Shown piece by piece: positions 24,990-60,623 of a DNA stretch of 64,000 bases; the first letter of the stretch is position 1, and each line of letters begins with the position of its first letter. This DNA comes from Selaginella tamariscina (taxonomy: Eukaryota > Streptophyta > Lycopodiopsida > Selaginellales > Selaginellaceae), in NCBI GenBank assembly GCA_003024785.1, contig PUQB01000459.1, positions 124,001-188,000 of the forward strand, written 5' to 3'. The notes under the pieces are model-generated. The model ran no database searches, was not told the DNA's origin, and saw only the letters and a list, made by a program, of their open reading frames with translations. The translations under genes were made by a program, and so were the position numbers.

Positions 24990-26742
24990 AATATTGTCAT
25001 AGTTTTTACTATGACTCGACCCTTTACTTTGGACGTTGACTGTTGTTACCTACTGTACTATGTTGATGGACCCTAGATGTAGTAGGAAACAGGCCCGCTT
25101 AGTGCACTTGGGTATCTGGTGATGGTCCGGCCGGGTGTCATTAGGTATTTGCAGGAAACTCTAAGCGAAGCTAGAACTTACCTTCTAGAAACCCACCCCC
25201 AATTTTGACGTCCCGAATAGGCTGATTGGTCTTTGCAATGAGTTCGGCGTGTTAAGTAGGGTTAGGAACACCCCTAGGGTTGACCTAACCCTAGGGTTGC
25301 CCTAACCCCCACCCCCTTGGGTAGGGTTTAGGGGTAGGAGTAAGGGTGAGTTATAGGCTCATATTGCTAATTTGTCTAAGGGGCTAAATTCAGTGCCAGC
25401 CCACTAACACAAGGAAAAGAGGGGGGGGGGGCTCCGTCACATAAATAAGGTAGAGTATATGTAGGAGAGCTCCTGGGTTCATGAATGAGTTCGTTGCTCT
25501 TCTGCCGGTGCAAGCTTCAGCTTGTGTCGTTAAGGTACAACCCTCTGTTGTGCCGCCCTAACTTCCAGATGCCAGGGGTACGTCCCACCTTCGGGGTAGC
25601 TTACCCTTAACGTTGGCGAATCCATGCCTGGGAGGTCTTGTCGGAATGCACGTTCCAAGAGGCAGAGGTTGAGGCTTGTCTCCAGCCTCCTCCTCCACGT
25701 CAAGCTAGGTGTAGCACTCACGGCCAAGCAAGGCACATCCGTGTCCTTGTCCAACTGTGGGCGTGGGATCTTGTTTGACAGGTTCACGTTACCTGGTTCC
25801 TGAGGGTTCATTGAGGGGTTCTAGAGTTGGCATTTAGGAACCACGTTTGTGGTACTTGGTGCAACTCTTGAATCTAAGGGCTATGGCATGATAGCCCACA
25901 TCGGAAGGCAGTGTCACATGGAGATGTGACACTGGGCTAAACGTCACATGGTACAACGCCCGAGGCACGCCCTTTGGGGTTATGTCATGGGCTTGTCGCT
26001 AAGGGGTTGGATACTCTAGCAAACAGGCATGCTTGTGCTTGCACTAGGGTGCTAAGCCTTGGGCATCCGCTCAAGGGAGGTTAGGTCTCGTAACTAGGTG
26101 TGCTTTGGCACACTTGGCTAGGGGAGTGTTCTCCTTGGAATCCAGGGGTTGAACAACCTAAGCTCATTAGCAGAAGCCCTTTCGTAAGGCACTCGCAAGG
26201 TCATGTGCTTAGGGTTATCCCAAACCTAGCCTTAGGGAGTTTGCTTAGCAGAACACTCGTGTCGCCTACGGCGCACACTCGTGTCCTCACTAAGTACTAG
26301 CCCTAGGTCTAGGGTATAACTTGGCCACTCAAACCCTTAGGGGTTAGTCGTGGTTCAGGGTACCCCTTGTCGCCCTAAAGGGGTTGTACTCCCGGATGAG
26401 GGTGATTCCTCAAGGGGTAAGTGACGATGCCTTAGCTCTGTCACGGGGTATGTGTGGAACACACGTCTCCTTGATGGGGGTTAGGGCATGAGCCTGTCTA
26501 GGTCTTCTAGGGCAAGACCCTAAGTCAACTAGGGTTATCCCTCAAGGGTTTTGGGGGTAGACACTTTAGGGAGACTTAGGCTAAACCCTAAGTCTCTGTC
26601 CACTTGGGCATTAGAGTCTAACCTTAGGGGTCGTTGGGTTGTTCTGGGAAACTTAGCGTTGCTCACACAGGGTGATGACGCCGAATGGCCACGCCACGTG
26701 TTGCCACGTGTTGGCCCTTTGGGTTAAAACTCTGATAAATAT
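24990..26742 (+). mobile_element. Solo LTR of the 1.75-kb LTR family, with TSD AATAT
   Basis: Sequence 24995-26737 starts TGTCATAGTTTTTACTATGA and ends GGGTTAAAACTCTGATA (the usual CA end has become TA). It is flanked by AATAT on both sides (24990-24994 and 26738-26742). Orientation is plus. No internal retrotransposon sequence adjoins it, so it is a solo LTR. On the opposite strand it carries an open frame of 93 codons (25530-25811) that is shared with other copies. Confidence 0.92.
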
Positions 26743-32132: not shown

Positions 32133-32180
32133 CATCCGAACGGGTCTCGGCGAAAAGGAGGCTCCGGCTCAGGAGGCTTC
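32133..32180. repeat. Outer MULE left TSD and terminal inverted repeat
   Basis: TSD CATCCGAAC (32133-32141) is followed by the TIR. The TIR core GGAGGCTCCGGCTCAGGAGG pairs imperfectly with the right end core GGAGGCTTGGGGCCCAGG over about 40 bp. Confidence 0.9.
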
Positions 32181-32269
32181 ATATTATTCTAGTATATTCG
32201 CGGATATTCTAGGGTTATTCTAGCATATTCTAGAATATTCTCAAGAATATTCTAGAATATATAAGTTTT

Positions 32270-32335
32270 TTTAATATGCCGACTGGCTTAATATATGCCG
32301 ACTGGCTTAATATATGCCGATTGGCTTAATAAAAC
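32270..32335. promoter_or_regulatory. Left subterminal TGCCGACTGG motifs, outer MULE
   Basis: Three direct copies of ATGCCGACTGGCTTAATAT-like sequence (the third has GATTGG) lie about 130-190 bp inside the end. They share the core TGCCGACT with the internal array and the right end, and are candidate binding sites for an element-encoded protein (inference). Confidence 0.55.
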
Positions 32336-32357
32336 ATTATCCTAAACCCTAAACCAT

Positions 32358-32429
32358 TTATCCTTGTAGCACCGGTGGGTCATGAACTCTGTTGCAATTC
32401 ACCAGCAAACGGTGGACCTCCATCTCATT
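32358..32429 (-). pseudogene. 3' end of outer transposase, cut off by inner MULE
   Basis: The minus-strand codons ending PPVLQG and the TAA at 32358-32360 are the tail of the outer transposase. The inner element entered 70 bp upstream of this stop codon; the coding sequence resumes at 40765. Confidence 0.85.
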
Positions 32430-32470
32430 GGGTCTCGGCGAAAAAGGAGGCTCCGGCTCAGGAGGCTTCA
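32421..32470. repeat. Inner MULE left TSD and terminal inverted repeat
   Basis: TSD CATCTCATT (32421-32429) is followed by GGGTCTCGGCGAAAAAGGAG, almost identical to the outer left end. Confidence 0.9.
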
Positions 32471-32551
32471 TATTATTCTAGTATATTCGCGGATATTCTA
32501 GGGTTATTCTAGCATATTCTCAAGAATATTCTAGAATATATAAGTTTTTTT

Positions 32552-32610
32552 AATATGCCGACTGGTTTAATATACGCCGACTGGCTTAATATATGCCGAC
32601 TGGCTTAATA
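32552..32610. promoter_or_regulatory. Left subterminal TGCCGACTGG motifs, inner MULE
   Basis: Three copies (one reads CGCCGACTGG) correspond to those of the outer copy. On the minus strand they lie just beyond the transposase stop codon at 32636-32638. Confidence 0.55.
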
Positions 32611-32635
32611 AACATTATCCTAAACCCTAAACCAT

Positions 32636-35600
32636 TTATCCTTGTAGCACCGGTGGGTCATGAACTCTGTTGCAATTCACCAGCAAACGGTGGACCTCCA
32701 TGTCACTGAGCGATCGCCTTTGTAGAAAATATGTGACTTCCGGGTTCAAGCCAAGCACACGGCTATAGACGAAGTACATGTGTACACATGGGCTCCAACT
32801 TTTGCTCTTCTGAAATGTAGAACAACTGCATGAAGGATAAGTATTAATAGTCACCTTTGCAGAGTCATTTCCTGCCGACACAACGAAAGCCTCCTTCCGT
32901 CCTCTAGCTGTCACTTCAACATTTCGCACACAACCTAAAAACGTCTTGGCCTTGCGGAAATTCTTCTCTTGTTCCTTAGACATTTTTGTTGGAGTCCGAA
33001 CCATACGTCCTTCGAAAGGTGGAATTGTTGTAGATCCAGCTCCACGTGGTGGCGATGGTGTTTTGTCCTTCTGACCCTCATCTACTCTTCCTGCCATCCC
33101 CTGTAAACCTTCCAGAACAAAGCCTGCATCCTGTAGTTCTCTGACCTCCTCACTTGTCAGCTTCGTTTCCTTGAGCACAGGCCAAACCGTTGGTGGTGTT
33201 GGAATACGTGACCGAAGAATTTTGCCGTTTGGCCGCGTGAAACACCCTGAATCTTTTGGGCAGAACCACATCATCTGTTGTACATACTCCTCATTCCCCA
33301 AGGCATCAATGTACATTCGTTTTCCATAGAATCCTGGTGCTGGCACTCTGCTTGGATAACCGATTGGTTTTCCACACAGAGCAGTTCCTTCCTGATTCAT
33401 CCCCAAACACTTAACCTTACTGGATGCTCCGATTCGTCTGATGGCCCACTCTGTTTGAGCAATCTCTCTCTCCGAAACCTCTTCGAACCTTAACCTCTTT
33501 CTCCTGTTGTTTTGGACCACCCGCTCTGTGTACTCTACATCATGTCTGTGTGAACGTCGAGCATCAGACTGTTCTGTTCCTGTGACTGTTCTCCTAACAG
33601 TTTGCACTCGAACGTTAGTGGTACTCGTGAACTCCGGGCTGGTCAAGTGTTCCTCGCCTTCCACCAGATTAATAATTGTTGATGGAGATACACTTTTCCC
33701 CTCAGAGAGTTTGCGTTGCACTCGTTTCAACAGAGTTTCCTTCGAAGGCCCTGACCCTGTATACCTCCCTTCTATTGCCGCTTTCACCTTCGCACTCTGC
33801 ATAACTGCATCGGTGAGGTCTAACATTGTCGCCTCCAGCAGTGGTACTCTTTTGGCCAATCTTGCTCTTCTTGCTCTCGCGTGAATCACTTCAGCATTGT
33901 TTGTAGTTGGAACGCTCGCGAGTCCTTCTTCTGTCATGTCTCCCAGTTCCGCCATGGAGATGTGGTCCTCATGCCTGATCCACCAAGACAGCCATGTCTT
34001 CAAAGCTCGAATGTTTGACGCTCGTCCTTCCCAAAGACTCGAGAATTGCCAGTTGTTCTTTCTTAGATTGTTCATTCAGTGCTGCAGGCCAGGCACGAGC
34101 AAGCTTCATGTGTTCTTCGCGATGTTCTTCTGCATTTTCTTTGTCACCTGACGCACGGATTGCATAAAGTGAAACAGACAGCTTCTTTCCCTCCCTTTCA
34201 TCTTTGCTCCGTTGTTGAATACTTGGCGCAAGGCTATCCATATCGCTCCAGCCTCATCCGACATGAAACCAGCAAAGTTGACATTCTCCAAACCCTGCTT
34301 CTTACAAACCTCTAGCATTGTGTTCAAGAACTTCAGCACTGCAACATTATCTTCGCGGCACATATCTGCGTAAGCTATAGTCACCATGGATCTGACACTG
34401 CAAGAGAGCGTTAGATAACGAAGATTAGAAAGTGTTATGAAGAGTTTTACAACTTACAATGGGTCATAAAGGTGTATTCCAATTGTCGCCCAGTCTGGTA
34501 TGCGGTGCGTGTGGTCCAGAACAACCCATTGATCATGAAGGTCTCCTCCACTTTGACACCTTCTGATGTACTCAACTCCTGAACCCGGTCCCTCAACTGT
34601 CATTTTGAAGATCAGAGGCTGCTCCTCAGCACCATGCAGTTCCATCCCTGGAACATGTATGACGTGAATGAAAGGTATTGGCAGCTTTGTCTTCAGCTCC
34701 AGAAGACCCTCGTAACCCTCTCTAAAGTGTGTCTCCTTCTGTCTTGATTGTGTAATCCAGTCCCGAGTCCTAAAGAAAAGGTCACGTCAGTGTGTAGAGA
34801 TCTAAAAAAAATACCTTCGATGGTTTGTTAGAGGTTCAAGTTTTGAGAGTAAACCAGTGTACGAGACTTCTCCTTCTTCCTTGAAAAGTTCTTCAAAGAT
34901 GAGCTCACGCGCGGCTTGAAACTCAATCACTCGTTGATTGGTTCGCGGACTGCTCTTTACCACGTTGCTGACACTAGATCTGGCTCGCTGAACGTTTGAA
35001 GCTGACACTGAGGGGCTGACTGGATGCTGATGAACACCTCTGTGAATGAACAACCTTGTAAAAGAAATGTCGTCTGGCAGAATGTAGTACACATAAGCCG
35101 GACAAGTGTGCACCAGCAATGGCTCCTCTCCACAATGCTTACATTTTATGCCTATTACTTTGCCTGTCTCAGTTGTCTTTGCCTTCTCCACAGCACCCTT
35201 GAAGTGACATTCATTTGCTTTCTTCTCAAAAGCCAAGTAGGGGCAGGTAGGATTGATGCATTGGAGATGTCCGACACATGAACTTCGACTGACTCGCGCC
35301 GGAACATGCCAGTGTGTTGTGCTCGGGTGTGTCCAATGGTAGCAGCCATCCTTGCGATTCATCCCCGAGTACTTCTCTGTGCTTTCTGTCTTAGGGGGAA
35401 GTTCGAAAATGACATTTCCATTGTATATCTGCGGTAGTTCAGAGACTCGTTTAACTTCAGACGAACCAATGAGATCCTTCCCTATCCTACATTTGTCTGC
35501 TCTTAGAAGACACACCAGCATGGATTCCTCACGCTCCTCTGTCCGCAACCTGAACAACGGGCCCTTTGCCGGGCACAATGTGTAAAAGACAAACTGGTTT

Positions 35601-35794
35601 GATGCATTGCCTTCTGGTAACAACTCCACATCTTCTCCAGAACTCGCAGAAACTGACATCAATTGAACCACATGTATACTGAACCAACAAGGAATGTTGA
35701 AAGCAATGTGAAGATCATGTTCAAACACAAAAGCATTTCCATCTTCATCGACTGGGAAATCTTTGTCAATGCCTTCATAGGTAACTCTGGCCAT
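32636..35794 (-). pseudogene. MULE transposase with SWIM zinc finger (inner copy), two small frameshifts
   Basis: Three exons are deduced: 35794-34815, 34769-34458 and 34397-32636, with introns of only 45 and 60 bp and GT-AG borders. The predicted product is about 1,020 residues. Exon 1 has a Cys/His cluster at roughly residues 165-270 (CINPTCPYLAF, KCKHCGEEP, HRGVHQHP), resembling the GCM1/WRKY- or FLYWCH-type fingers found at the N-terminus of MULE proteins. The catalytic region shows the first aspartate in VVLDHTHRIPD, the second in FMSDEAGAIW and CLFHFMQS, the CxxH box typical of MULEs. The C-terminus carries the SWIM finger CSCSTF...CVH at about residue 950. I did not assign the third acidic residue. 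Compared with the outer copy, about 4 bp are missing near 34137 and 2 bp near 34040, breaking the frame locally and then restoring it. Confidence 0.85.
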
Positions 35795-36260
35795 GACAAC
35801 GCAAGGAGAAAGCTCGGTGGTTTAGGAAAGCAAAGCAAAAGATTAAACACACTTTCTCTTACCAAAAAAAAATTACAATCGTTAACAATAAACGTGAATA
35901 CACGTTTGTATATAATTAATTCTATGCTGCCCAGTTCACAGTGTTCTTAATGATGTCCTCTCTAGTATCACCGATTTAATTTAATTTCTACCTTTTATGA
36001 TTTGAAATATCTTCACATTTACCAATTATTCACATATTTTAAAATAAACCCTAAATATTAATGTCACATTTATTCCGTAGGGTTCACTGTTTTCATTGCG
36101 GCTAGGGTTTTTTGGTAGATAGGGTTTACTGTTTCCATTGCGGCTAGGGTTCTTTCAATCTCAGATCTGTTTCCACTGCGGTAGATCCAGAGGGTTTCTT
36201 CAATCTCAGATCTCAGAGTTACGGTTTCCACTGCGGCGCCATCCATTTCGACTCGATTCG
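35795..36260. promoter_or_regulatory. Divergent intergenic region between transposase and cargo gene (inner)
   Basis: This head-to-head region should hold both promoters. It starts AT-rich (about 35860-36060) and then has a short repeated block: TGCGGCTAGGGTT at about 36099 and 36140, and CAATCTCAGATCT at about 36157 and 36200, each followed by a TTTCCACTGCGG-like word. AAACCCTAA, the plant telo-box, lies at about 36047. No convincing TATA box was chosen. Confidence 0.5.
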
Positions 36261-37334
36261 TGCAGCGCCCAAGTATAACAATGGAGATTTCTGTGCCGAT
36301 TTAGATTCTCGGCACCATCCTGCTCAGCCGGCGGCCACAAGGTATGTGTAATTTCTGTATTTTATGATTTGCTGCTCAAAGTATTTCTTTTTCCAGAGAT
36401 ATAGGGTCTTCTTATTTGTGCCGACTGAGAGCACGGCACCATCCTGGTTCAGTCGGCAAACACAAGGTATCGTCGATTTATTTATTTTTTTCCTTGCGGC
36501 TCAAGTATACGTGTCACAATGTTTTTTTTTCAGAGTTAATGGGTCTTTCCATTTGTGCCGACTGAGAGTGACGGCACCATCCTGGTTCAGTCGGCAAAAA
36601 CAAGGTATTTTCGATTTGTTTTTTTTTGCTTTCTGGCTCAAGTATTCGTATCACAAGGTTTTTATTTTCAGAGTTAATGGGTCTTCCCATTTGTGCCGAC
36701 TGAGAGTGACGGCACCATCCTAGTTCAGTCGGCAGCCACAAGGTATGTTCGATATATTTATTTTTTGCTTTCTGGATCATGTATTCGTATCACATTGTTT
36801 TTTTTCAGAGTTAATGTGTCTTCTCATTTGTGCCGACTGAGAGTGACGGCACCATCCTTCTTCAGTCGGCAGCCACAAGGTATTTTGAATTTGTTTATAT
36901 TTTGCTTGCGGCTCAAGTATCCGTATAACAATGTTTTTTTTCAGAGTTATAGTGTCTTCCCATTTGTGCCGACTGAGAGTGACGGCACCATCCTTCTTCA
37001 GTCGGCAGCCACAAGGTATTTTGAATTAGTTTTTTTTTTCTTTGCGTCTCAAGTATTTCTTTTAAAACAGTTAATGGGTCTTCCCATTTGTGCCGTCTGA
37101 GAGGGACGGCACCATCCTATCTCAGTCGGCACCATTATCTCTTCTGTGCCGTCTGACAGAGTCGGCACAAACTATCTCAGTCGGCAGGTTTTTTCTTCTA
37201 CATCTCTCTGCCGACTGAGAGGGTCGGCAGCATCTAGCTTGAGTCGGCAGCCACAAGGTTAGTCATCTTTGTTTGTTTTTTTTTTTTGACTCCACATCAA
37301 TTGACTTGTGTGTTTACTTTCCAGAGTTCCCAAA
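36261..37334 (+). promoter_or_regulatory. Array of repeated non-coding exon-intron units with inverted TGCCGACTGA motif
   Basis: Eight leader exons can be laid out with perfect borders (CACAAG before GT, TTTCAG before the exon). Exons end at 36341, 36466, 36604, 36742, 36879, 37015 and 37257; the next starts at 37325, ten bases before the cargo ATG. Exons 2-6 are each 70-71 bp. Introns are 55, 67, 67, 66, 65, 55 and 67 bp. Each exon holds GTGCCGACTGA...TCAGTCGGCA, a 10-bp inverted repeat, plus an inner GTGCCG...CGGCAC stem. The longer seventh exon (37071-37257) carries several more motif copies. Whether every intron is spliced is unknown. The array may be a transcribed leader, a binding-site array or both. 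Confidence 0.7.
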
Positions 37335-40300
37335 ATGGTGAGAGCTTCAAAACGTCTACTAGAGACTGCGCCTGATGAAGAGCCACGGGAAGAGAAGAGG
37401 ATATCGAAGCAGAAGCGAGGCAAGAGAGGAGAACCATCTAATGTACCAAAGGAGGATCCTCCAGTGACTCAGTCTGGAGTAGTAGCAGTTGAGCAAGAAC
37501 AGCCTCCACCAACAATCACAGATTTCCCGGAGAGCTCGTCGCAGTTGCCTCCTTCATCCGCTGAGGTTGCAGTCCTGAACGAGCAAGTGCAGATGACAGA
37601 GGCAGCTGAAGCTAGCGAGGACGACTTGGAGGAGGCAGTCAGCAAAAAGAGAGGCCGCGGGAAAGCTGATTCAAAAGGCAAGAAGGCGAAGAGCGATAAG
37701 GAGCCGAAGGAGTTATACAGCATACCGGCGAGCCTGCATTTGGAGAGCTCAGCAAACCTGCTCGACAAAATTACTATCAAGGGACTTGGTGATCCTCCTG
37801 ATGTGCCCATCTGCAGAATACATTCCAACGAGGTGGTTCGACGAGTGAACCCAGGGGACTTGGACAGGCTGGTGTCATCGTTGAAGAAGGCTGGTTATCT
37901 ACGCAACACGGCCTGTTCATTCTGTCCATCGGAGATCGACTCACTGCTGAGGAGCTATCGGAGCTGTCGAAGGACACGATTCAGTACGAGCAGCACCGGT
38001 CTTTCGAGCAAGCTCTTACTCAGCCGGAGTACAAACAGTGGGCTTCAAGGCTCTCAAACAGGAAGTTTAGCTGCTGGGACGGGAACCATAGGCTACAGGC
38101 TTTGCAGAAGCTGTACCGAGAGGATGCAGAGGACAACCAGCGATGGGCTATTCGCGTTCGATCGAGTTTCATCTCCACGGAGAACCTCGACATTCTTCAA
38201 CTGGTTTCGATGTTCCAATCGATTAACATGTGAGTATTTTCTTTTTTTTTGTTAAGAGTTTAGACTTAACAGTTTCGTTGAACAGATCTTCAGCAACATC
38301 TGTGGAAACAACGCTACCACATATTCTCCTCGCTGTAAAGGCGGTCTGCACTAGTACAGAAGGAACTCAGAAAATCCTCGAGTCACTCACGGAGGTTGAT
38401 CGTCTTGAGGTGCGGAAGTGGAAGGAGAGTTCATCAGGAAAGACGGCTTGGCATCCTCTTCCGAACCTGATCTGCGCAAAGATACTTTTCAAGGTAACCT
38501 CCGATTTAATTTATAGGAAAGAAATTTTTAACTTGTTCTATGTGCAGAACGAGATCGACGATGATCTCGACAGAGCAGTCACCAGTGCTAAGGGCAATCC
38601 ACAGGTTGAGGTGAACCTGAAGCAGCTAGTATACAAGAAGCATGACAAGCGTATGCACAAGTTCCTCTCCATCATAGACCCAGACTTGGGGGAGGAGTGG
38701 TTCCAGAAGGTGACAAACATCTCTCATAAGCAGTGTCGCTGGATGGGCATTGAGAAGCTGTATGCGATGTCAAGGGCGAAGATTCCAAACATGCTGCGAC
38801 TCCGATACCTCAACAAGCTCACCCGTCTCGAATCCAAGGCAGAACAACAGACACTTGGGCTACCGGGCATGCAGGACAAAGAGTGGATCAAGTGGTTCAC
38901 CTTGGACTTATATTGGAAGGCTGTGCGCGAGGAAGCCATTCAGATCCTTAAGGGGTTGCGAGAGGATGGTGAAGAAGTTGGAACGGATGTCGACTTCATG
39001 AGCTGGTTTGACGAGATGAGAATTCGGAGCAAGTGCCTGGTCTTTCAGCCCTTCCATGACTGCATACGGTTCACTTATTCGATGGAGCCGAATGAGTTTC
39101 TGGAGCGTGAGGAATCTGCGCGTCGGATGATATGGAGGTAAGCTTTCAATCCAGCATTGCTACTGTCTGACTTTGTGTTGCAGGTTCATACTGGCGAAGC
39201 AAATGACACCGTCCCATACGATGAAGCTGTGGACAGATCATACAAGCGAGCCTCACATGTGGTCGAAGAGCAGAGGAGCTCTAACACCGTTCGAACGGGA
39301 GCATGTTCCATTCTGGCTCGACTGTCCGTCGCAACAGCCACCAGCTTGGGAGAGCACACTATTCGACATGCACGCCAATGATCTACCAGCGATTGTTTGG
39401 GAGCCAGAAGAAGTAGAGGCTATCAAGAAGAGCAAGATGAAGAAGACGGTGCGGAAGACAACTACACCTGCAAAGGGATCGGGAGCGGGACCAAGCTCTT
39501 CTACAGCACCTCCGCCGGCATTCGACTTTACAATCAATGAGGTACAGCCACTTGTAGCTAGTTTGGACATCAAGGACGACCTGATGACCTTCATCCCGAC
39601 CCTGGCTGCATCCCGTGGATCCTACGACCTAGCTGTGTGCGACATGGAGGAGATGAGCAGGTCTTTCTTCGAGCCAGGTGCTTCCCAGACAGAGGTGTAC
39701 ACCAAGCTCCGAGAACAGGTTGACAGACTACATACGGTTGAGTCACAAACGTTGTTCCAGGAAGTGGTAGGTGAATACGGCTTCAACCTCATCATCCTCG
39801 ACTTGCCCAATGAGCTTGTATATGGAGGTGCTAGCATCAACAAGGACATTGTGCAGCTAGATCCGGTGAAGTTTGAGGAGGCCTTGCAGTTCAGTGGAAT
39901 GCACTTGGCAGCGAGTGGTTTCATGGTCGTCTTCGCGAGTTCTCCTTCTGTTTCGGCGGTGATTCAGGCGGCTGCAGTAATCAACTTGGAGGTTGCAGGG
40001 ACTTACAGCGTCTACCGTGCACGAGGCTGGGGATACCGTGACAAAATTAAGGTAAGCTAGCTATTCAAGTTCAAGTTTAACTTGGTCTATGTGGCAGGAT
40101 AACTTGTTAGTTCTCTTGGTGCTGCAAAGCTCTGAGAAGAAGTCGAAGAGGCCAAACCCTCTGGCGTTGACGAACACGATCCTCGTCGACACTGCCGACC
40201 GTTATCAGGAGGCTTGGTAAGGAAGTGCTTTGCTATGTTTATCCTAATGGAAGATTGTGCAGGATTATGATTCAACCGAAGAGTGTTCGACTCATGCAGC

Positions 40301-40560
40301 TTTTGATCGAGCGTCTCAGTAGACCTGGCGACCTAGTCTGGGATATTGGTTCCGGAACCGGGTCATCATTGTTAGCTGCCGTCGAGCTCGGAAGGAATAT
40401 TATAGGAACCGAGAAGAGTTTCGAACTCTCTAGGTTGGCAACAAACAAGCTTGCAGAGAACATTAGACCAGAAGAGTTACCTACTCAAACACCTCCACGT
40501 CCAAGCGTAACTGGTGGTTCGAGAACTGCAGCTTTACTTAAGATGAAGAAGAAACTTTAG
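37335..40560 (+). CDS. MULE cargo: ParB-like domain fused to beta-class DNA methyltransferase (one frameshift)
   Basis: Six exons: 37335-38229, 38286-38493, 38548-39137, 39184-40051, 40098-40216 and 40263-40560; introns are 56, 54, 46, 46 and 46 bp, all GT-AG. With one base added near 37909 the joined frame is exactly 993 codons. Residues 1-140 are charged, with a nuclear-signal-like KKRGRGKADSKGKKAKSDK. Residues about 158-265 resemble ParB/sulfiredoxin-type domains: RLVSSLKKAGYL, then WDGNHRLQALQKL as the GxxR box. The middle third is unrecognised. The C-terminal third has beta-class amino-methyltransferase order: motif IV NLIILDLPNEL (about 770) before motif I DLVWDIGSGTGSSLLAAVEL (about 910-930). 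Motif IV is DLPN, not the catalytic (D/N/S)PP(Y/F/W). ParB-methyltransferase fusions are known from phages and bacteria. The frameshift lies where the outer copy has lost a different base, so a sequencing error or very recent decay are both possible. Confidence 0.82.
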
Positions 40561-40576
40561 CTAATGTATATTGAGT

Positions 40577-40582
40577 AATAAA
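40577..40582 (+). terminator. Candidate polyadenylation signal of the cargo gene
   Basis: AATAAA lies 17 bases after the stop codon, followed by an A-rich tract. The same arrangement follows the outer copy's cargo gene near 49775. Confidence 0.5.
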
Positions 40583-40639
40583 TTAAGCTAATATAAAAAA
40601 AAATTAAAAAGAAATACAACAGTTTTAATAGAATTCTTT

Positions 40640-40764
40640 TTTGCCGACTGAGGCCAATACTGCCGACCAGAAAGAATATTCCAAAATATTCTAGAATATT
40701 CTTGAATATTCGAGCCCAGGCCTCCTGGGCCCCAAGCTCCAAATTGGCGACACTCCATCTCATT
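40640..40764. repeat. Inner MULE right end: subterminal motifs, terminal inverted repeat and TSD
   Basis: TTGCCGACTGAGG and CTGCCGACC at about 40642-40670 are followed by AATATTC-rich sequence and the right TIR ending GGCGACACTC at 40755, then TSD CATCTCATT. The AATATTCTAGAATATTC palindromes occur inside both ends of each copy. Confidence 0.88.
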
Positions 40765-43700
40765 GAGCGATCGCCTTTGTAGAAAATATGTGACCTCCGG
40801 GTTCAAGCCAAGCACACGGCTATAGACGAAGTACATGTGTACACATGGGCTCCAACTTTTGCTCTTCTGAAATGTAGAACAACTGCATGAAGGATAAGTA
40901 TATTCACCTTTGCAGAGTCATTTCCTGCCGACACAACGAAAGCCTCCTTCCGTCCTCTAGCTGTCACTTCAACATTTCGCACACAACCTAAAAACGTCTT
41001 GGCCTTGCGGAAATTCTTTCTCTTGTTCCTTAGACATTTTTGTTGGAGTCCGGACCATACGTCCTTTGAAAGGTGGAATTGTTGTAGATCCAGCTCCACG
41101 TGGTGGCGATGGTGTTTTTGTCCTTCTGACCCTCATCTACTCTTCCTGCCATCCCCTGTAAACCTTCCAGAACAAAGCCTGCATCCTGTAGTTCTCTGAC
41201 CTCCTCACTTGTCAGCTTCGTTTCCTTGAGCACAGGCCAAACCGTTGGTGTGTTGGAATACGTGACCGAAGAATTTTGCCGTTTGGCCGCGTGAAACACC
41301 CTGAATCTTTGGGCAAAACCCACATATGTTGTGTACATACTCCTCATTTCCCCAAGGCATCAATGTACATTCGTTTTCCATTAGAATCCTGGTGCTGGCA
41401 CTCTACTTGGATAACCGATTGGTTTTCCACACAGAGCAGTTCCTTCCTGATCATTCCCCAAACACTTAACCTTACTGGATGCTCCGATTCGTCTGATGGC
41501 CCACTCTGTTTGAGCAATCTCTCTCTCCAAAACCTCTTCGAACCTTAACCTCTTTCTCCTGTTTGTTTTTGGACCACCCGCTCTGTGTACTCTACATCAT
41601 GTCTGTGTGAACGTTGAGCATCAGACTGTTCTGTTCCTGTGACTGTTCTCCTAACAGTTTGCACTCGAACGTTAGTGGTACTCGTGAACTCCGGCTGGTC
41701 AAGTGTTCCTCGCCTTCCACCAGATTGATAATTGTTGATGGAGATACACTTTTCCCCTCAGAGAGTTTGCGTTGCACTCGTTTCAACAGAGTTTCCTTCG
41801 AAGGCCCTGACCCTGTATACCTCCCTTCTATTGCCGCTTTCACCTTCGCACTCTGCATAACTGCATGTGAGGTCTAACATTGTTGCCTCCAGCAGTGGTA
41901 CTCTTTTGGCCAATCTTGCTCTTCTTGCTCTCGGTGAATCACTTCAGCATTGTTTGTAGTTGGAACTCGCGAGTCCTTCTTCTGTCATGTCTCCAGTTCC
42001 GCCATGGAGATGTGGTCCTCATGCCTGATCCACCAAGACAAGCCATGTCTTCAAAGCTCGAATGTTTGACGATCGTCCTTCCCAAAAAGACTCTAGAATT
42101 GCCAGTTGTTCTTTCTTAGATTGTTCATTAGTGCTGCAGGCCAGGCACGAGCAAGCTTCATGTGTTCTTCGCGATGTTCTTCTGTGATCCATTTCTTTGT
42201 CACCTGACGCACGGATTGCATAAAGTGAATACGACAGCTTCTTCCCTCCCTTTCATCTTTGCTCCGTTGTTGAATACTTGGCGCAAGCTATCCATATCGC
42301 TCCAGCCTCATCCGACATGAAACCAGCAAAGTTGACATTCTCCAAACCCTGCTTCTTACAAACCTCTAGCATTGTGTTCAAGAACTTCAGCACTGCAACA
42401 TTATCTTCGCGGCACATATCTGCATAAGCTATAGTCACCATGGATCGGACACTGCAAGAGAGCGTTAGATAACGAAGATTAGAAAGTGTTATGAAGAGTT
42501 TTACAACTTACAATGGGTCATAAAGGTGTATTCCAATTGTGCCCAGTCTGGTATGCGGTGCGTGTGGTCCAGAACAACCATTGATCATGAAGGTCTCCTC
42601 CACTTTGACACCTTCTGATGTACTCAACTCATGAACCCGGTCCCTCAACTATCATTTTGAAGATCAGATCCTCAGCACCATGCAGTTCCATCCCTGGAAC
42701 ATGTATGACGTGAATGAAAGGTATTGGCAGCTTGTCTTCAGCTCCAGAAGACCCTCGTAACCCTCTCTAAAGTGTGTCTCCTTCTGTCTTGATTGTGTAA
42801 TCCAGTCCCGAGTCCTAAAGAAAAGGTCACGTCAGTGTTTACAGAATCTAAAAAAATACCTTCGATGGTTTGTTAAAGGTTCAAGTTTTGAGAGTAAACC
42901 AGTGTACGAGACTTCTCCTTCTTCCTTGAAAAGTTCTTCAAAGATGAGCTCACACGCGGCTTGAAACTCAATCACTCTGATTTTTCGTGGACTGCTCTTT
43001 ACCACGTTGCTGACACTAGATCTGGCTCGCTGAACGTTTTGAAGCTGACACTGAGGGGCTGACTAGATGCTGATGAACACCTCTGTGAATGAACAACCTT
43101 GTAAAAAAATGTCGTCTGGCAGAATGTAGTACACATAAGCCGGACAAGTGTGCACCAGCAATGGCTCCTCTCCACAATGCTTACATTTTATGCCTATTAC
43201 TTTGCCTGTCTCAGTTGTCTTTGCCTTCTCCACAGCACCCTTGAAGTGACATTCATTTGCTTTCTTTCTCAAAAGCCAAGTAGGGGCAGGTAGGATTGAT
43301 GCATTGGAGATGTCCGACACATGAACTTCGACTGACTCGCCCGAACATGCCAGTGTGTTGTGCTCGGGTGTGTCCAATGGTAGCAGCCATCCTTGCGATT
43401 CATCCCGAGTACTTCTCTGTGCTTTCTGTCTTAGGGGGAAGTTCGTAAAACATTTCCATTGTATATCTGCGGTATTCAGAGACTCGTTTAACTCAGACGA
43501 ACCAATGAGATCCTTCCCTATCCTACATTTGTCTGCTCTTAGAAGACACACCAGCATGGATTCCTCACGCTCCTCTGTCCGCAACCTGAACAACGGGCCC
43601 TTTGCCGGGCACAATGTGTAAAAGACAACTGGTTTGATGCATTGCCTTCTGGTAACAACTCCACATCTTCTCCAGAACTCGCAGAAACTGACATCAATTG

Positions 43701-43828
43701 AACCACATGTATACTGAACCAACAAGGAATGTTGAAAGCAATGTGAAGATCATGTTCAAACACAAAAGCATTTCCATCTTCATCGACTGGAAATCTTTGT
43801 CAATGCCTTCATAGGTAACTCTGGCCAT
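40765..43828 (-). pseudogene. Outer-copy MULE transposase, main part, many indels
   Basis: It starts at an ATG (43828) in the same context as the inner copy and shows the same exon layout and motifs: FMSDEAGAIW near 42300, the SWIM CSCSTF-type block near 40850, the GCM/FLYWCH-like region near 43150-43320. It is interrupted by many one- to few-base indels and by the inner MULE. In two places it keeps bases missing from the inner copy (WITEEHREEH near 42180 and the run around 42090), which shows what the inner frameshifts removed. It is non-functional. Confidence 0.85.
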
Positions 43829-44870
43829 GACAACGCAAGGAGAAAGCTCGGTGGTTTAGGAAAGCAAAGCAAAAATTAAACACACTTTCCCTTACCAAAA
43901 AAAAATTACAATCGTTAATAATAAACGTGAATACACGTTTGTATATAATTAATTCTATGCTGCCCAGCTCACAGTGTTCTTAATGATGTCTTCTCTAGTA
44001 TCACTGATTTAATTTAATTTCTACCTTTTATGATTTGAAATATCTTCACATTTACCAATTATTCACATATTTTAAAATAAACCCTAAATATTAATGTCAC
44101 ATTTATTCCGTAGGGTTCACTGTTTTCATTGCGGCTAGGGTTTTTTGGTAGATAGGGTTTACTGTTTCCATTGCGGCTAGGGTTCTTTCAATCTCAGATC
44201 TGTTTCCACTGCGGCAGATCCAGAGGTTTCTTCAATCTCAGTCTCAGAGTTACGGTTTCCACTGCGGCACCATCCATTTCGACTCGATTCGTGCAGCGCC
44301 CAAGTATAACAATGGAGATTTCTGTGCCGATTTAGATTGTCGGCACCATCCTGCTCAGCCGGCGGCCACAAGGTATGTGTAATTTCTGTATTTTATGATT
44401 TGCGGCTCAAAGTATTTCTTTTCCAAAGATATAGGGTCTTCTTATTTGTGCCATTGAGAGCGACGGCACCATCCTGGTTCAGTCGGCAAACACAAGATAG
44501 TGTCTTCCCATTTGTGCCGACTGAGAGTGATGGCACCATCCTTCTTCAGTCGGCAGCACAAGGTATTTTGAATAGTTTTTATTTCTTTGCGTCTCAAGTA
44601 TTCTTTTAAAACAGTTAATGGGTCTTCCATTTGTGCCGTCTGAGAGGGACGGCACCATCCTATCTCAGTCGGCACCATTATCTCTTCCGTGCCGTCTGAC
44701 AGAGTCGCACAAATCTCAGTCGGCAGATTTGTTCTTCTACATCTCTCTGTCGACTGAGAGGGTCGGCACCATCTAGCTTGAGTCGGCAGCCACAAGGTTA
44801 GTCATCTTTGTTTGTTTTTTTATTTTGTCTCCTCATCAATTACTTGTGTGTTGCTTTCCAGAGTTACAAA
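43829..44870 (+). promoter_or_regulatory. Outer-copy intergenic region and shortened leader array
   Basis: It is homologous to 35795-37334. The repeated exon array is much shorter: the end of the second leader exon (CGGCAAACACAAG, about 44495) is joined directly to a position four bases inside the sixth exon (ATAGTGTCTTCCC), so about four exon-intron units present in the inner copy are absent here. The flanking introns remain, so this is not a retrocopy. Confidence 0.7.
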
Positions 44871-47800
44871 ATGGTGAGATTCAAAACGTCTACTAGAGAC
44901 TGCGCCTGATGAAGAGCCACGGGAAGAGAAGAGGATATCGAAGCAGAAGCGAGGCAAGAGAGGAGAACCATCTAATGTAGCAAAGGAGGATCCTCTAGTG
45001 ACTCAGTCTGGAGTAGTAGCAGTTGAGCAAGAACAGCCTCCACCAACAATCACAGATTTCCCGGAGAGCTCGTCGCAGTTGCCTCCTTCATCCGCTGAGT
45101 TGCAGTCCTGAACGAGCAAGTGCAGATGATAGAGGCAGTTGAAGCTAGCGAGGACGACTTGGAGAGGCAGTCAGCAAAAGAGAGGCCGCGGAAAGCTGAT
45201 TCAAAAGGCAAGAAGCGAAGAGCGATAAGGAGCCGAAGGATTATACAGCATACCGGCGAGACTGCATTTGGAGCTCAGCAAACTGCTCGACAAAATTACT
45301 ATCAGGGACTTGGTATCCTCCTGATGTGCCCATCTGTAGAATACATTCCAACGAGGTGTTCGACGAGTGAACCCAGGGGACTTGGACAGGCTGGTGTCAT
45401 CATTGAAGAAGGCTGGTTATCTACGCAACACGCCTTGTTCATTCTGTCCATCGGAGATCGACTCACTGCTGAGGAGCTATCGAAGCTGTCGAAGGACACG
45501 ATTCAGTACGAGCAGCACCGTCTTTCGAGTAAGCTCTTTCTCAGCCGGAGTACAAACAGTGGGCTTCAAGGCTCTCAAACAGGAAGTTTAGCTGCTGGAC
45601 GGAACATAGGCTACATGCTTTGCAGAAGCTGTACCGAGAGGATGCAGGGGACAACCAGCGATGGGCTTTCGCGTTCGATCGAGTTTCATCTCCACGGAGA
45701 ACCTCGACATTCTTCACTGGTTTCGATGTTCCAATCGTAACATGTGAGTATTTTCTTTTCTTTTTGTTAAGAGTTTGACTTACAGTTTCGTTGAACAGAT
45801 CTTCAGCAACATCTGTGGAAAACAACGCTACACATATTCTCCTCGCTGTAAAGGCGGTCTGACTAGTACTGAAGGAACTCAGAAAATCCTCGAGTCACTC
45901 ACGGAGGTTGATCGTCTTGAGGTGCGGAAGTGGAAGGAGAGTTCAGCAGGAAAGATGGCTTGGCATCTCTTCCGAACCTGATCTGCGCAAAGATCCTTTC
46001 AAGGTACCTCCGATTTAATTTATAGAAGAAATTTTTAACTTATTCTATTGAACAGACGACGATGATCTCGACAGAGCTCACCAGTGCTAAGGGCAATTCA
46101 CAGGTTGAGGTGAACCTAAAGCAGCTAGTGTACAAGAAGCATGACAAGTGTATGCACAAGTTCCTCTCCATCATAGACCCAGACTTGGGGAGGAGTGGTT
46201 CCAGAAGGTGACAAAATCTCTCATAAGCAGTGTCGCTGGATGGGCATTGAGGCTGATGCGATGTCAAGGGCGAAGATTCCAAACATGCTGCGACTCCGAT
46301 CCTGAACAAGTCCCCGTCTCGAATCCAGGCAGAACAACAGACACTTGGGCTACCGGGCATGCAAGACAAAGAGTGGATCAAGTGGTTTTACCTTGGACTT
46401 ATTGGAAGGCTGTGCGCGAGGAAGCCATTCAGATCCTTAAGGGGTTGCGAGAGGATGTGAAGAAGTTGGAACGGATGTCGACTTCATGAGCTGGTTTGAC
46501 GAGATGAGAACTCGGAGCAAGTGCCTGGTCTTTCAGCCCTTCCATGACTGCATACGGTTCACTTATTCGATGGAGCCGATGAGTTTCTGGAGCGTGAGGA
46601 ATCGGATGATATGGAGGTAAGCTTTCAATCCAGCATTGCTACTGTCTGACTTTGTGTTGTAGGTTATACTGGCGAAGCAAATGACACTTCCATACGATGA
46701 ACTGTGGACAGATCATACAAGCGAGCCTCACATGTGTCGAAAGCAGAGGAGCTCTAACACCATTCGAACGGGAGCATGTTCCATTCTGGCTCGACTTCCG
46801 TCGCAACAGCCACCAGCTTGGGAGAGCACACTATTCGACATGCACGCCAATGATCTACCAGCGATTGTTTGGGAGCCAGAAGAAGTAGGCTATCAAGAAG
46901 AGCAAGATGAAGAAGACGGTGCGAAAGACAACTACACCTGCAAAGGGATCGAGAGCGGGACCAAGCTCTTCTATAGACCTCCACCGGCATTCGACTTTAC
47001 AATCATGAGGTACAGCCACTTGTAGCTAGTTTGGACATCAAGGACGACCTGATGACCTTCTGTCATAGTTTTTACTATGACTCAACCTTTACTTTGGACG
47101 TTGACTATTTACCTACTTACTATGTTGATAAGCCCTAGGGTAGAAGAAACAGGCCCGCTTAGTGCACTTGGATATCTAGTGATGTCGGGCCGGTGTCATT
47201 AGGTATTTGCAAGAAACTCTGGCGAAGCTAGCACTTCCATCTAGAAACTCTTACCTTGGTTTTTCATGTCCCGTTGGATTAATGGCTAGTTCCGGTGAGT
47301 TCGGCATGTCGGATATGCTTAGAAATACCCCAGGTTGACAGGTTAGGTTTAGGGTCGATAGATAACTCACCAAGTATTCCCTCTGGGAATGAGATTTCAG
47401 TGCAGCCACTTATGTACACAGGAAACAGGGGGGGGGGGGGGGCCTCTGTCAACATAAATAAGGTATATATAGGAGTGAGGTTCCTGGGTTCATGACTGCT
47501 CGTTACTCTTCTCCCGGTGCAAGCTCTAGCTTGTGTCGTTAAGGCACAACCCTCTGTTGTGCCGCCCTAACTTCCAGATGCCAGGGGTACGTCCCACCTT
47601 CGGGGTAGCTTACCCTTAACGTTGGTGAATCCGTGCCTGGGAGGTCTTGTCGGAATGCACGTTCCAAGAGGCAGAGGTTGAGGCTTGTCTCCAGCCTCCT
47701 CCTCCACGTCAAGCTAAGAGCAACACTCACAGCTAACCAGGGCACGTTTGTGTCTTTGTCCAACTGTGGTTGTGGGTTCTTGATTGACAAGGTTTCCTTA

Positions 47801-49758
47801 TCGGGTCTTGAGGGATAATTGAGAGGTTCTAGAGTTGGCATTTAGGAGCCACGTTTGTGGCACTTGGTGCAACTCTTGAATCTAAGGCTATGGCATGATA
47901 GCCACATCGGGGAAGGCAGTGTTTCACATGGAGATGTGACACTGGGCTAAACGTCACATGGTGCAACACCTGAGGCATGCCCTTTGGGGTTTATGTCATG
48001 GGCTTGTCGCCAAGGGGTTGGATACCTTAGCAAATAGACATGCTTGTGCTTGCACTAGGGTGTTAAGCCTTGGGCATCCGCTCAAGGGAGGTTAGGTCAT
48101 ACTAGGTGTGCTTTGACACACTTGGCTAGGGGAGTGTTCTCCTTGGAATTCAAGGTTGAACAACCTAAGCTCATTAGCAGAAGCCCTTTCGTGAGGCACT
48201 CGCAAGGTCATGTGCTTAAGGTTTCCCAAACCTAAGCCTTAGGAGTTTGCTTAGCAGAACACTCGTGTTCGCTTACGGCGCACACTCGTGTCCTCACTAA
48301 GTACTAGCCCTAGGTCTAGGGTATAACTTGGCCACTCAAACCCTTAGGGTTAGTCGTGGTTCAGGGTAACCCTTGTCGCCCTAAAGGGGTTGTACTCCGG
48401 ATGAGGGTGATTCCTCAAGGGTAAGTGACAATGCCTTAGTTCTGTCCAGGGTATGTGTGGAACACACGTCTCCTTGATGGGTTAGGGCATGAGCCTGTCT
48501 AGGTCTTCTAGGGCAAGACCCTAAGTCAACTAGGGTTATCCTCAAGGGTTTGGGGTAGACACTCTAGGAGACTTAGGCTAAACCCTAAGTCAACTAGGGT
48601 TATCCCTCAAGGGTTCTGGGGCAGACATTCTAGGAGACTTAGGCTAAACCCTAAGTCTCCTGTCCACTTGGGCATTAGAGTCTAACCTAGGGGTCGTTGG
48701 GGTTGTTCTTGGAAACTTAGCGTTGCTCACACAGGGTGATGACGCCAAATGGCCACCTGGCAGCCATGTGTTGCCACGTGTTGGCCCTTTGGGTTAAAAC
48801 TCTGACACCTTCATCCCGACCCTGGCTGCATCCCGTGGATCCTACGACCTAGCTGTGTGCGACATGGAGGAGATGAGAGGTCTTTCTTCGAGCCGGTGCT
48901 TCCCAGACAGAGGTGTACACCAAGCTCCGACAACAGGTTGACAGACTACATACGGTTGAGTCACAAACGTTGTTCCAGGAAGTGGTGTGAATACGGCTTC
49001 AACCTCATCATCCTCGACTTGCCCAATGAGCTTGTATTGGAGGTGCTAGCATCAACAAGGAATTGTGCAGCTAGATCCGGTGAAGTTTGAGGAGGCCTTG
49101 CAGTTTCAGTGGAATGCACTTGGCAGCAAGTGGTTTCATGGTCTCTTCGCAAGTTCTCCTTCTGTTTCGGCGGTGATTCAGGCGGCTGCAGTAATCAACT
49201 TGGAGGTTGCAGGGACTTACAGCGTCTACCGTGCACGAGGCTGGGATACGTGACAAAATTAAGGTAAGCTAGCTATTCAAGTTCAAGTTTAACTTGGTCT
49301 ATGTGGCAGGATACTTGTTAGTTCTCTTGGTGCTGCAAAGCTCTAAGAAGAAGTCGAAGAGGCCAACCTCTGGCGTTGACGAACACGATCCTCGTCGACA
49401 CTGCCGACCGTTATCAGAGGTTGGTAAGGAAGTACTTTGCTATGTTTATCCTAATGGAAGTTTGTGCAGGATTATGATTCAACCGAAGATGTTCGACTCA
49501 TGCAGCTTTTGATCGGTCTCAGTAGACCTGGCGACCTAGTCTGGGATATTGGTTCCGGAACCGGGTCATCATTTAGTTGCCGTCGAGCTCGAAAGGAATA
49601 TTATAGAACCGAGAGAGTTTCGAACTCTCTAGGTTGCAACAAACAAGCTTGCAGAGAACATTAGACCAGAAGAGTTACCTACTCAAACACCTCCACGTCC
49701 AAGCGTAACTGGTGGTTCGAGAACTGCAGCTTTACTTAAGATGAAGAAGAAACTTTAG
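44871..49758 (+). pseudogene. Outer-copy ParB-methyltransferase cargo gene, degraded and split by a solo LTR
   Basis: The gene follows the exon plan of 37335-40560 from the ATG at 44871 to the TAG at 49756-49758. It has many small deletions: the DGNHR box has been damaged (near 45598), and several frames are needed to read it. A solo LTR with TSD CCTTC (47061-48807) splits the exon upstream of the methyltransferase domain. Motif IV still reads NLIILDLPNEL (near 49000-49035) and motif I still reads LVWDIGSGTGSS (near 49540-49575). The unusual DLPN tetrad is therefore ancestral to both copies and not a recent error. Confidence 0.88.
47056..48812 (+). mobile_element. Solo LTR of the 1.75-kb LTR family in the outer cargo gene, TSD CCTTC
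   Basis: Sequence 47061-48807 starts TGTCATAGTTTTTACTATGA and ends TTAAAACTCTGACA. CCTTC flanks it at 47056-47060 and 48808-48812. The empty site is the continuous GATGACCTTCATCCCGAC in the inner copy near 39586. Confidence 0.95.
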
Positions 49759-49904
49759 CTAATGTATATTGAGTAATAAATTAAGCTAATATAAAAAAAA
49801 TAAAAGAAAATACAACAGTTTTATAGAATTCTTTTTGCCAACTGAGGCCAATACTGCCAACCAGAAAGAATATTCCAAAATATTCTAGAATATTCTTGAA
49901 TATT

Positions 49905-49958
49905 CGAGCCCAGCCTCCTGGGCCCCAAGCCTCCAAAATGGCGACACTCCATCCGAAC
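49905..49958. repeat. Outer MULE right terminal inverted repeat and TSD
   Basis: The TIR ends GGCGACACTC at 49949, followed by CATCCGAAC, identical to 32133-32141. Confidence 0.92.
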
Positions 49959-54048: not shown

Positions 54049-55261
54049 CACTCCCGCTTTGAAAATGTCAACGTCCACGTTCACGTCCAACTCCAAGACT
54101 ATATAATGTTAGAAAAATTAACCAAAATTAAATATCACTCTATGTGGAGTCAGCCAAAAGTTCACATAAGTTTATTAACCCCCCTTGCATTATGCAAAAC
54201 AAGTACTTCAGAACCGTCGTTCACTGAGTCATAAACCTAGCTGCCGGAGGCACCACTTGCGACATGAAGTCACTTGGAGACCTTTTGCAGTTGCAAAGTC
54301 TGTCACCCGAGACGCACAACACTGGTTAATTTATTTACTTAAGTAATTTATATTTGGAGCCTCTAGTTAGTGTTGTTGCCGGCCCCTTGGTTAATAAGAA
54401 ATAAAGACTTGCTTTAATTCCTTAATATCAACGCTATTGATGACCTTGTCGTCTTAGCGCACAACAAGCACTTGACGTATATCTCAAGTGCTTAACTAAA
54501 CGCCTTCACGTTTCTCCAATTGTTTCACATTTTTCACATGTCTCGGTATTAAAGCTTCACTTTTCTGTATACCTCGGTTTCTCATTACCCCTTTACATAA
54601 GGGTCTGCTACTATATCTATCCCCTTTAGTATATAGTTACGCCAGACTAGGTATGAGACTTTTTCGGAATCAAGCTCTTTTCGATACTAGAGTACTAATC
54701 CCGAAACCCTGTTCTTTGTAGACATGTCAATCTGGCCAGAGGCGATCACAGAGGCGCATGGCTGTACACATGTATACAACAAGGTCATACCAATATGCCA
54801 AATGCCATCCACTTGGTGTGTCATTAACATAATTTATTCTAATAGGAACCAAATTGAGTCAAATCTACAACAAGTGTGATAGCTCTTACCATTCGTCTTT
54901 CGCAACCTAGCTTGTACTCTTTCATAACATTGACCAGTTCAGAGACTAGATAAGCTAACATACCTTTCTTACAGACTTGTGTGGAAACCGGAAATTCTAC
55001 CCATCTCTAGCACTCAATCGATGACCTTAGATAAACATCCCTTAATTGTCACTTTCATTGTACTCATTCCCCAAAGAGCACATCATACTAGATGCCGTTC
55101 AATACTTCCCAACTCTTTATCTCACTAAGTTTAAAATACTAAATTTAAAACTTAGTTTCTACAATAAAAGTCTCCCTGAACTCAGAATACTGCATGTTAT
55201 TCATAATATTATACTCATGTCCATCTCTCAAATTGATTATGTAAATGTTTCTCAACATTAT
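54049..55261 (-). mobile_element. Truncated internal region of an older large-LTR element
   Basis: It starts at the polypurine tract (GCGGGAGTG on the minus strand) and parallels 56948 to about 58165 of the complete element, with substitutions throughout. It ends abruptly at CAACATTAT, where the next LTR begins. No coding sequence is visible. Confidence 0.8.
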
Positions 55262-60621: not shown

Positions 60622-60623
60622 AT

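Follow-up and report, generated by a model that had tools for sequence, protein, structure and literature searches.

A MULE-like transposon lineage of Selaginella tamariscina pairs its transposase with a gene for a putative DGQHR- and methyltransferase-like protein and with motif arrays

What does a second gene do when it travels beside the transposase of a DNA transposon? To our knowledge, second genes of Mutator-like elements (MULEs) are few and their biochemistry is mostly unknown. The question is raised by a 64,000-nucleotide stretch of the Selaginella tamariscina genome (GenBank assembly GCA_003024785.1, contig PUQB01000459.1, positions 124,001 to 188,000, forward strand), hereafter the window, in which a two-gene MULE-like element occupies positions 32430..40755. 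A sequence-only reading had drawn these boundaries, exact to the base, and had described the second gene, here called the cargo gene, as a fusion of ParB-like and DNA-methyltransferase parts. We find that both genes lie between 9-bp target-site duplications (TSDs), have been amplified together and are paired in three element families, and that the cargo gene is under purifying selection between families. Arrays of a short motif, TGCCGACTG, are new in this analysis; they recur in a family at 58% identity to that of the window, although no alignment was obtained between the intergenic DNA of the two. Our leading reading, which we hold tentatively and at somewhat less than an even chance, is that this lineage carries the cargo as a self-targeting anti-silencing or regulatory factor resembling VANC.

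The element, its copies and its diverged relatives

The window copy has the following parts.
32421..32429, no strand: left TSD, CATCTCATT (sequence read and 9-bp direct-repeat scan)
32430..32519, plus: left terminal inverted repeat (TIR), about 90 bp, imperfect, beginning GGGTCTCGGCGAAAA (end-to-end alignment, four sister copies)
32636..35794, minus: transposase gene, three exons (34815-35794, 34458-34769, 32636-34397), frame broken at 34134 and 34032
37335..40560, plus: cargo gene, six exons (37335-38229, 38286-38493, 38548-39137, 39184-40051, 40098-40216, 40263-40560), with a 1-base deletion at 37913
40666..40755, minus: right TIR, ending GGCGACACTC (four sister copies aligned)
40756..40764, no strand: right TSD, CATCTCATT (sequence read and 9-bp direct-repeat scan)

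The same nine bases flank the element on both sides and the TIRs, about 90 bp long and imperfect, are the same in 4/4 copies examined, which bears out the TSDs and matching ends previously claimed. Membership in the MULE group rests on this TSD and TIR pattern together with protein motifs. The transposase is 1019 amino acids long in five sister copies, and four relatives in the protein database share 28-31% identity with it over 45-55% of its length. Its boxes D (LDHTHR), D (FMSDEAG) and E (TNxAExxH), which we take to be the MULE catalytic triad, could be aligned with relatives: the first and second D boxes are kept in P0001, P0003 and the diverged loci L038 and L037 described below, and the second D and the E in P0004 (P0002 was omitted from this alignment). 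A C-terminal SWIM-like finger at about 32770-32842 scored 16 bits against Pfam SWIM when the last exon was searched and 13.9 bits with the whole protein (cut-off 19.6). Pfam MULE transposase models had no match at E<=10, the only other match being DUF951, below its cut-off. Of the MULE transposase features in the sequence-only reading, the D/D/E boxes align with relatives, the SWIM finger falls below the cut-off and the family model is without a match.

The genome comprises 300.7 Mb in 1391 contigs. At the transposase end we scored 40 of 896 candidates, and at the cargo end 40 of 863; together the two lists contain 67 distinct elements, of which 13 appear in both. An exact 18-mer from the cargo box had 335 genome matches (reversed control, 0), and the WDGNHR box written with other codons had 352 (control, 0), a number that may include decayed copies. 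Twenty copies were retrieved from the top of the transposase-end similarity ranking, giving 21 with the window copy. Both genes were present in 20/20, so that copies lacking the cargo, the outcome named beforehand as fatal to the proposal, did not appear in this part of the ranking. The alignment of each of the 20 to the element begins at its first base and stops no more than about 30 bases short of its last; for some copies it is split in two, at the repeat array or, in L018, close to the right end. Mean pairwise substitution divergence among the 21 copies is 0.26%, and the element is high-copy and apparently young. When end shifts of up to 3 were allowed, a 9-bp TSD was found in 14/21 copies (13 perfect, L021 with one mismatch) and none in 7/21; one of the 13 perfect TSDs is the simple repeat TATATATAT (L025). 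L019 has both frames open and the TSD GATTCGGAA. Within each of the pairs L017/L018 and L022/L023 the left flank is shared and the right flank is not, reflecting a rearrangement or an assembly join.

The cargo gene is transcribed from the plus strand in the predicted model, divergent from (head-to-head with) the transposase gene. Its product has 992 amino acids in L011 and L019, and its introns have GT-AG borders in 20/21 copies, among them the window copy. Relative to L019, the window copy has the 1-base deletion in cargo exon 1, common to 2/20 other copies, and in the transposase it lacks 2 bases at 34032 and 4 bases at 34134; frameshifted in both genes, it is not intact. Frame breaks among the copies are small indels. 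Deletions at 34032 (1 or 2 bases) relative to L019 are common to 15/20 copies and one at 35246 to 8, and of 69 distinct indels in the cargo, 61 occur in a single copy. Because the 34032 deletion is widely shared and cargo indels are mostly private, many copies may depend on transposase made elsewhere. The 34032 deletion sits in a run of A, where sequencing error is a possible source. An uneven density of indels along the copies was considered as a real oddity and was attributed to the choice of copies by transposase-end similarity.

Two loci with the box in other codons, L038 and L037, were read across the whole gene pair; their introns were placed by similarity to the window model, and the frames were then open throughout. 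Each has the same head-to-head pair. At the amino-acid level L038 is 64.5% identical to the window family in the transposase and 58.0% in the cargo, and the L037 cargo is 29.5% identical. The cargo introns (5/5) agree in alignment column and in phase across the three families; L037 has one extra, and one of its introns is GC-AG. The L038 model begins within exon 1 because its acidic N-terminal tail changes frame. The predicted six-exon divergent gene has therefore held up as a gene model. At its ends, L038 has a possible TGTAGTAAA TSD pair, and a search for the ends and TSD of L037 settled on none. Partial loci matching the cargo are L040, L041 (97% to L038), L042 and L043 (91% to the window). 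A further locus, L039 (G000:C450:293500-297250), has a WDGNHR box and a DFPT motif yet gave no significant tblastn match to the window cargo, and is possibly a far more diverged family.

Between L019 and L038 the proportion of synonymous differences (pS) is 0.84, which is saturated, and the nonsynonymous divergence (dN) reaches 0.34 in the cargo and 0.28 in the transposase. Within the set of 21 copies, changes present in at least two have a pN/pS of 0.14 in the cargo and 0.07 in the transposase, and single-copy changes 0.25 and 0.48, all on small counts; for L011 and L019 the ratio is 0.22 on 7 changes. Because the gene pair and five introns are kept in two diverged families, and because synonymous divergence is saturated with dN far lower, the cargo is an ancestral, selected component of the element lineage and not a chance capture. 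Capture of host sequence is frequent in MULEs, and a Pack-MULE-style accident would make the cargo a recently captured, hitch-hiking host gene or foreign fragment. Against this stand the hundreds of cargo-box matches in the genome and the presence of the same gene, all five introns included, next to the transposase in families whose identity is 58.0% and 29.5%; we give the idea almost no credence, a recent capture being made very unlikely for this family by the introns and pairing common to the families. The prokaryotic or viral source proposed for the gene gained neither support nor contradiction. No cargo homologue was found at E<=1e-3 in a 5.8-billion-sequence protein database among the 7999 (single sequence) or 8000 (three-sequence alignment) candidates that were scored, and the five introns common with the family at 29.5% identity indicate that the cargo has long been in the lineage.

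Domains of the predicted cargo protein

Four positions in the cargo gene carry the domain assignments (papers are cited here and below from excerpts).
38075..38092, plus: WDGNHR box, DGQHR/DndB-type, ParB/Srx-like (sequence read, box pattern and profile)
38213..38227, plus: FQSIN, the FxxxN motif accompanying DGQHR domains (profile alignment; signature in PMC4619093)
39800..39811, plus: methyltransferase motif IV position, DLPN (sequence read)
40263..40560, plus: last cargo exon, motif X/I region PKSxxLMQLLIERLSRPGDLVWDIGSGTGSSLLAA (Pfam N6_N4_Mtase; PDB profile matches CcrM and MboIIA)

The first box had been assigned to ParB. Searched against the whole genome, ParB_N (PF02195) gave 0 matches at E<=1; of 14 control genomes, 11 gave matches in the same search and 9 exceeded the cut-off. 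The DGxHR box itself remains, and ParB proper is ruled out by the profile search. Against Pfam DndB (PF14072), a fragment of L037 scored 18.9 bits, below the cut-off of 29.1, and the window-family cargo had no match; TIGR03233 gave 14.7 bits against a cut-off of 328. We compared a three-family profile (residues 140-340) with three DndB/DGQHR plasmid proteins, one of them incomplete, and obtained a score of 34.0 (probability 32%, E 4.7e-4 as a single comparison). As controls, the piece in reverse and four further parts of the cargo had E values of 0.13-0.75, and 100 column shuffles reached a maximum of 23.5, with 34.0 attained by 0/100. The alignment puts DGNHR on DGQHR and FQSIN on FxxxN; DGNHR is present in L019, L038 and L037, with FQSIN, FQQIN and CNRLN, respectively, at the second motif. 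FxxxN is among the marks of DGQHR domains, a group linked with the ParB/Srx fold, for which nucleoside triphosphate (NTP) binding has been proposed (PMC4619093). A translated search with the DGNHR region found two plasmid records and one phage record at E 2-7, one of them a dndB. Because the profile score beats the shuffles and both motifs align in register, this region is probably a DGQHR/DndB-type domain and not ParB.

About 500 residues separate the DGNHR box from the methyltransferase box. The cargo C terminus matches Pfam N6_N4_Mtase (PF01555) at 35.8 bits (cut-off 26.7) in its motif I / X block, and does so in 3/3 families; the match covers model positions 164-219 of 221 only, which is the motif I end. 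It also matches phrog_67 (E 1.8e-10), and the best matches of the three-family profile to solved structures are 6pbd (CcrM, 3.9e-5) and 1g60 (MboIIA, 4.9e-5). Only the X-I block aligns to these proteins; the rest of the cargo did not align. Between L019 and L038 this block is the best conserved 60-residue stretch (77% at residues 881-940). A translated search of phages with the full cargo returned 133 records at E<=0.1, and among the 20 matches listed all lay at the methyltransferase end.

Motif IV precedes motif I, the order of the permuted beta class. It reads DLPN in 20/21 copies and in L038, L040, L041 and L043, DPPT in L037 and DFPT in L039, and was not found in L013 and L042. The listed types of motif IV are DPPY, SPPY and DPPW (PMC8885841); their aromatic residue is absent at every locus where the motif was found, and no canonical (D/N/S)PP(Y/F/W) lies N-terminal to motif I. 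Of the beta-class amino-methyltransferase motifs reported before, motif I is therefore sustained and motif IV is not. With D-x-P-[N/T] in place of a motif bearing the aromatic, catalysis is doubtful.

An active amino-methyltransferase could mark element DNA with N4-methylcytosine (4mC) or N6-methyladenine (6mA), protecting it or distinguishing it from host DNA silenced by 5-methylcytosine (5mC). The strong conservation of the X-I block, the N6_N4_Mtase match in every family and the leading structural matches to CcrM and MboIIA are in its favour, and there are precedents in the Dam-like adenine methyltransferases of DIRS elements (PMC5890265) and in bdelloid N4CMT (PMC8885841). The loss of the aromatic wherever motif IV was found, and a Pfam match confined to the motif I end, make an active enzyme distinctly unlikely. 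Because the motif that binds S-adenosylmethionine is kept and the base-flipping aromatic of motif IV is missing, the cargo is more likely to bind or sense DNA than to methylate it in the usual way.

Motif arrays and the proposed role

The TGCCGACTG motif is arrayed between the two genes and near both ends of the element, at these positions.
32557..32602, plus: left subterminal cluster, three GCCGACTG motifs (motif scan)
36388..37131, plus: tandem array of 5.5 units of 137 bp, in which GCCGACTG occurs as inverted pairs (Tandem Repeats Finder; the motif array runs on to about 37249)
40643..40650, plus: right subterminal GCCGACTG motif (motif scan)

The element holds 17 occurrences of GCCGACTG (3 left, 13 intergenic, 1 right), none of them in the two coding sequences, against 0.19 expected per copy. 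There are 0 in the 46,193 window bases outside this element and the outer copy in which it is nested. Each copy has 12-17 intergenic motifs and 2-3 at the left in 21/21, and the right-end motif is present in 20/21. L038 has 19 exact GCCGACTG. One is at the right; the other 18 are intergenic and make up nine inverted pairs, most of them CCCAGTCGGCATGCCGACTGGG at a spacing of about 40 bp, although the intergenic DNA of L038 gave no blastn match to that of the window. Among intergenic 8-mers, GCCGACTG ranks third in the window family and first in L038. L039-L043, which cover little or no intergenic DNA, are uninformative on arrays; L043 has one site within its coding part. The edges of the 137-bp unit look splice-site-like by eye (TTTTCAG before, GTATNT after), and the units may be small leader exons. 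They also hold a TGCCGACTGA...TCAGTCGGCA hairpin, and RNA hairpin folding was moderate (z -1.5 to -2.7 in 4 units).

We take GCCGAC to be the core of the dehydration-responsive element/C-repeat (DRE/CRT) and GAATATTCTAGAATATTC near the ends to be a heat-shock element. The arrays could then be host stress-response sites on a stress-induced element, with a cargo role unrelated to them. The core hexamer is identical, and GAATATTC/ATATTCTAG, presumably heat-shock-element-like, lie near both element ends (32490-32560, 40660-40715), and in the L037 and L038 stretches GAATATTC likewise lies towards either end. The sites common to the two families are, however, longer than the DRE core, the 36 exact GCCGACTG sites being preceded by T in 33 and followed by A or G in 35, and GAATATTC occurs 12 times elsewhere in the window. 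We consider this explanation very unlikely.

In the reading that we favour, the cargo protein, DGQHR/DndB-type (ParB/sulfiredoxin-like) in one domain and resembling a permuted beta-class amino-methyltransferase in the other, would act in trans on copies of its own element. Recognition of the TGCCGACTG arrays, intergenic and subterminal, would most likely bring it there, and host silencing would be blocked or reversed so that these copies stay expressed or mobile. VANC plays this part for VANDAL, although VANC belongs to a different protein family. Protection or de-silencing of element DNA, the role proposed in the sequence-only reading, is plausible for the cargo, and the motif arrays lend it indirect support.

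Several observations weigh against this proposal. L037 has the cargo gene and 0 occurrences of GCCGACTG. The protein that binds the arrays might instead be the transposase or a host factor. The motif core is kept between families at 58% identity, whereas the motifs of VANC21 and VANC6 differ. When exons were placed by alignment to the window, the spliced 992-codon cargo frame was open in 2/21 copies (L011, L019) and the 1019-codon transposase frame in 5/21 (L013, L019, L024, L026, L027). Signs of selection are weaker in the close pairs, with a ratio of 0.35 and 5 stops for L043 and of 0.60 and 3 stops for L038/L041. Finally, copies retrieved from the top of a similarity ranking could miss cargo-free relatives.

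Alternatively, the cargo may be a transposition cofactor, either mudrB-like or an NTP-dependent protein that pairs or clamps the ends, with the arrays as binding sites of the transposase or its complex. This would suit a motif that is subterminal as well as intergenic, the pairing of the genes in three families, and the placing of DGQHR-type domains with the ParB/Srx fold, for which NTP binding is proposed (PMC4619093). Most of the motifs (13/17) are intergenic, upstream of the cargo start codon and not at the ends, and we regard a cofactor as rather unlikely. Unlikely, in our judgement, is also a DNA-marking or DNA-reading module that the transposon evolved from two domain types of bacterial DNA-modification systems, DGQHR/DndB and beta-class amino-methyltransferase, and aimed at parS-like iterons in the intergenic region and ends. 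If true, such a self-made module would be a self-recognition system apart from the host 5mC machinery and ancestral to a whole group of element families.

Surroundings and known systems

The window element is nested in the transposase 3' end of a second, older two-gene sister copy, each with its own 9-bp TSD (32133-49958 overall).
32142..32429, plus: outer copy, left end (TSD CATCCGAAC at 32133-32141)
40756..49949, plus: outer copy, remainder; its own transposase and cargo genes each carry many small deletions (right TSD CATCCGAAC, 49950-49958)
47062..48807, no strand: insertion inside the outer cargo gene resembling a solo long terminal repeat (LTR), TGTCATAG...CTCTGACA, with 5-bp TSD CCTTC (ends judged by eye)

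Part of the many small deletions in the outer copy relative to the inner one may be assembly noise. The LTR-like family has at least five repeats in the window (7017-8822, 24995-26735, 47062-48807, 55260-56947 and 60622-62393). Adjoining one of them, 62579-63436 on the minus strand encodes a retroviral-type aspartyl protease (PF08284, at cut-off) and, by eye, reverse-transcriptase-like sequence. The element types and CCCTAAA-like strings suggest a plant-like genome.

The closest parallel to the reading that we favour is found in the VANDAL elements of Arabidopsis, which are of MuDR type. VANC21 binds a nine-base motif, often tandemly repeated, in the introns and the intergenic and terminal non-coding DNA of VANDAL21, where it induces a loss of methylation (PMC5735166). 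Both systems consist of a MULE-type element, an extra gene beside the transposase and a short motif arrayed in non-coding DNA (here in the window family and L038), with motif number varying between copies. They differ in that the second protein here has DGQHR-type and methyltransferase-like domains and in that the motif core is common to families at 58% identity. With bacterial DGQHR/DndB and DUF262/GmrS proteins the cargo shares the DGxHR pentapeptide, FxxxN and a profile match; unlike them, it lies below the curated cut-offs and has a methyltransferase-like fusion. Its X-I block aligns with the beta-class methyltransferases phrog_67, CcrM and MboIIA, whereas its motif IV is altered.

Other mobile elements carry enzyme-like genes. 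TET/JBP genes occur in fungal KDZ, hAT, EnSpm and other lineages and SET genes in Phytophthora MuDR and HarbingerS, and such genes are thought to counter silencing (PMC12730594, in whose main text 'ParB' does not appear). The element described here likewise has an enzyme-like gene aboard, of a different fold and in a different host group. DIRS elements with Dam-like adenine methyltransferases, and SymbioLINE-Dnmt, SymbioDIRS-Dnmt3 and charophyte elements with cytosine DNA methyltransferases (PMC5890265), are also mobile elements with a DNA-methyltransferase gene; unlike ours, they are retrotransposons, and their enzymes are Dam-like or C5, not permuted beta-class proteins bearing a DGQHR box. 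A permuted N6_N4_Mtase-type domain is found in another eukaryotic protein, bdelloid N4CMT, which is a host gene with canonical SPPY (PMC8885841), and 4mC occurs in a plant, Marchantia (PMC8566409); in the excerpts of these papers, neither N4CMT nor the Marchantia enzymes are described as transposon parts. Open-access literature searches aimed at genes for ParB or a methylase in MULEs, in transposons or in plants returned no paper, and no such element is described in the titles and abstract openings of the papers that related searches returned.

A second gene with two domains of DNA-modification systems, selected across deeply diverged families and paired with a motif array, is a testable case of transposon self-control of chromatin or DNA marking. 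Among eukaryotic mobile elements with DNA-methyltransferase-like proteins, the cargo would add an example that belongs to a DNA transposon and is not of the C5 type.

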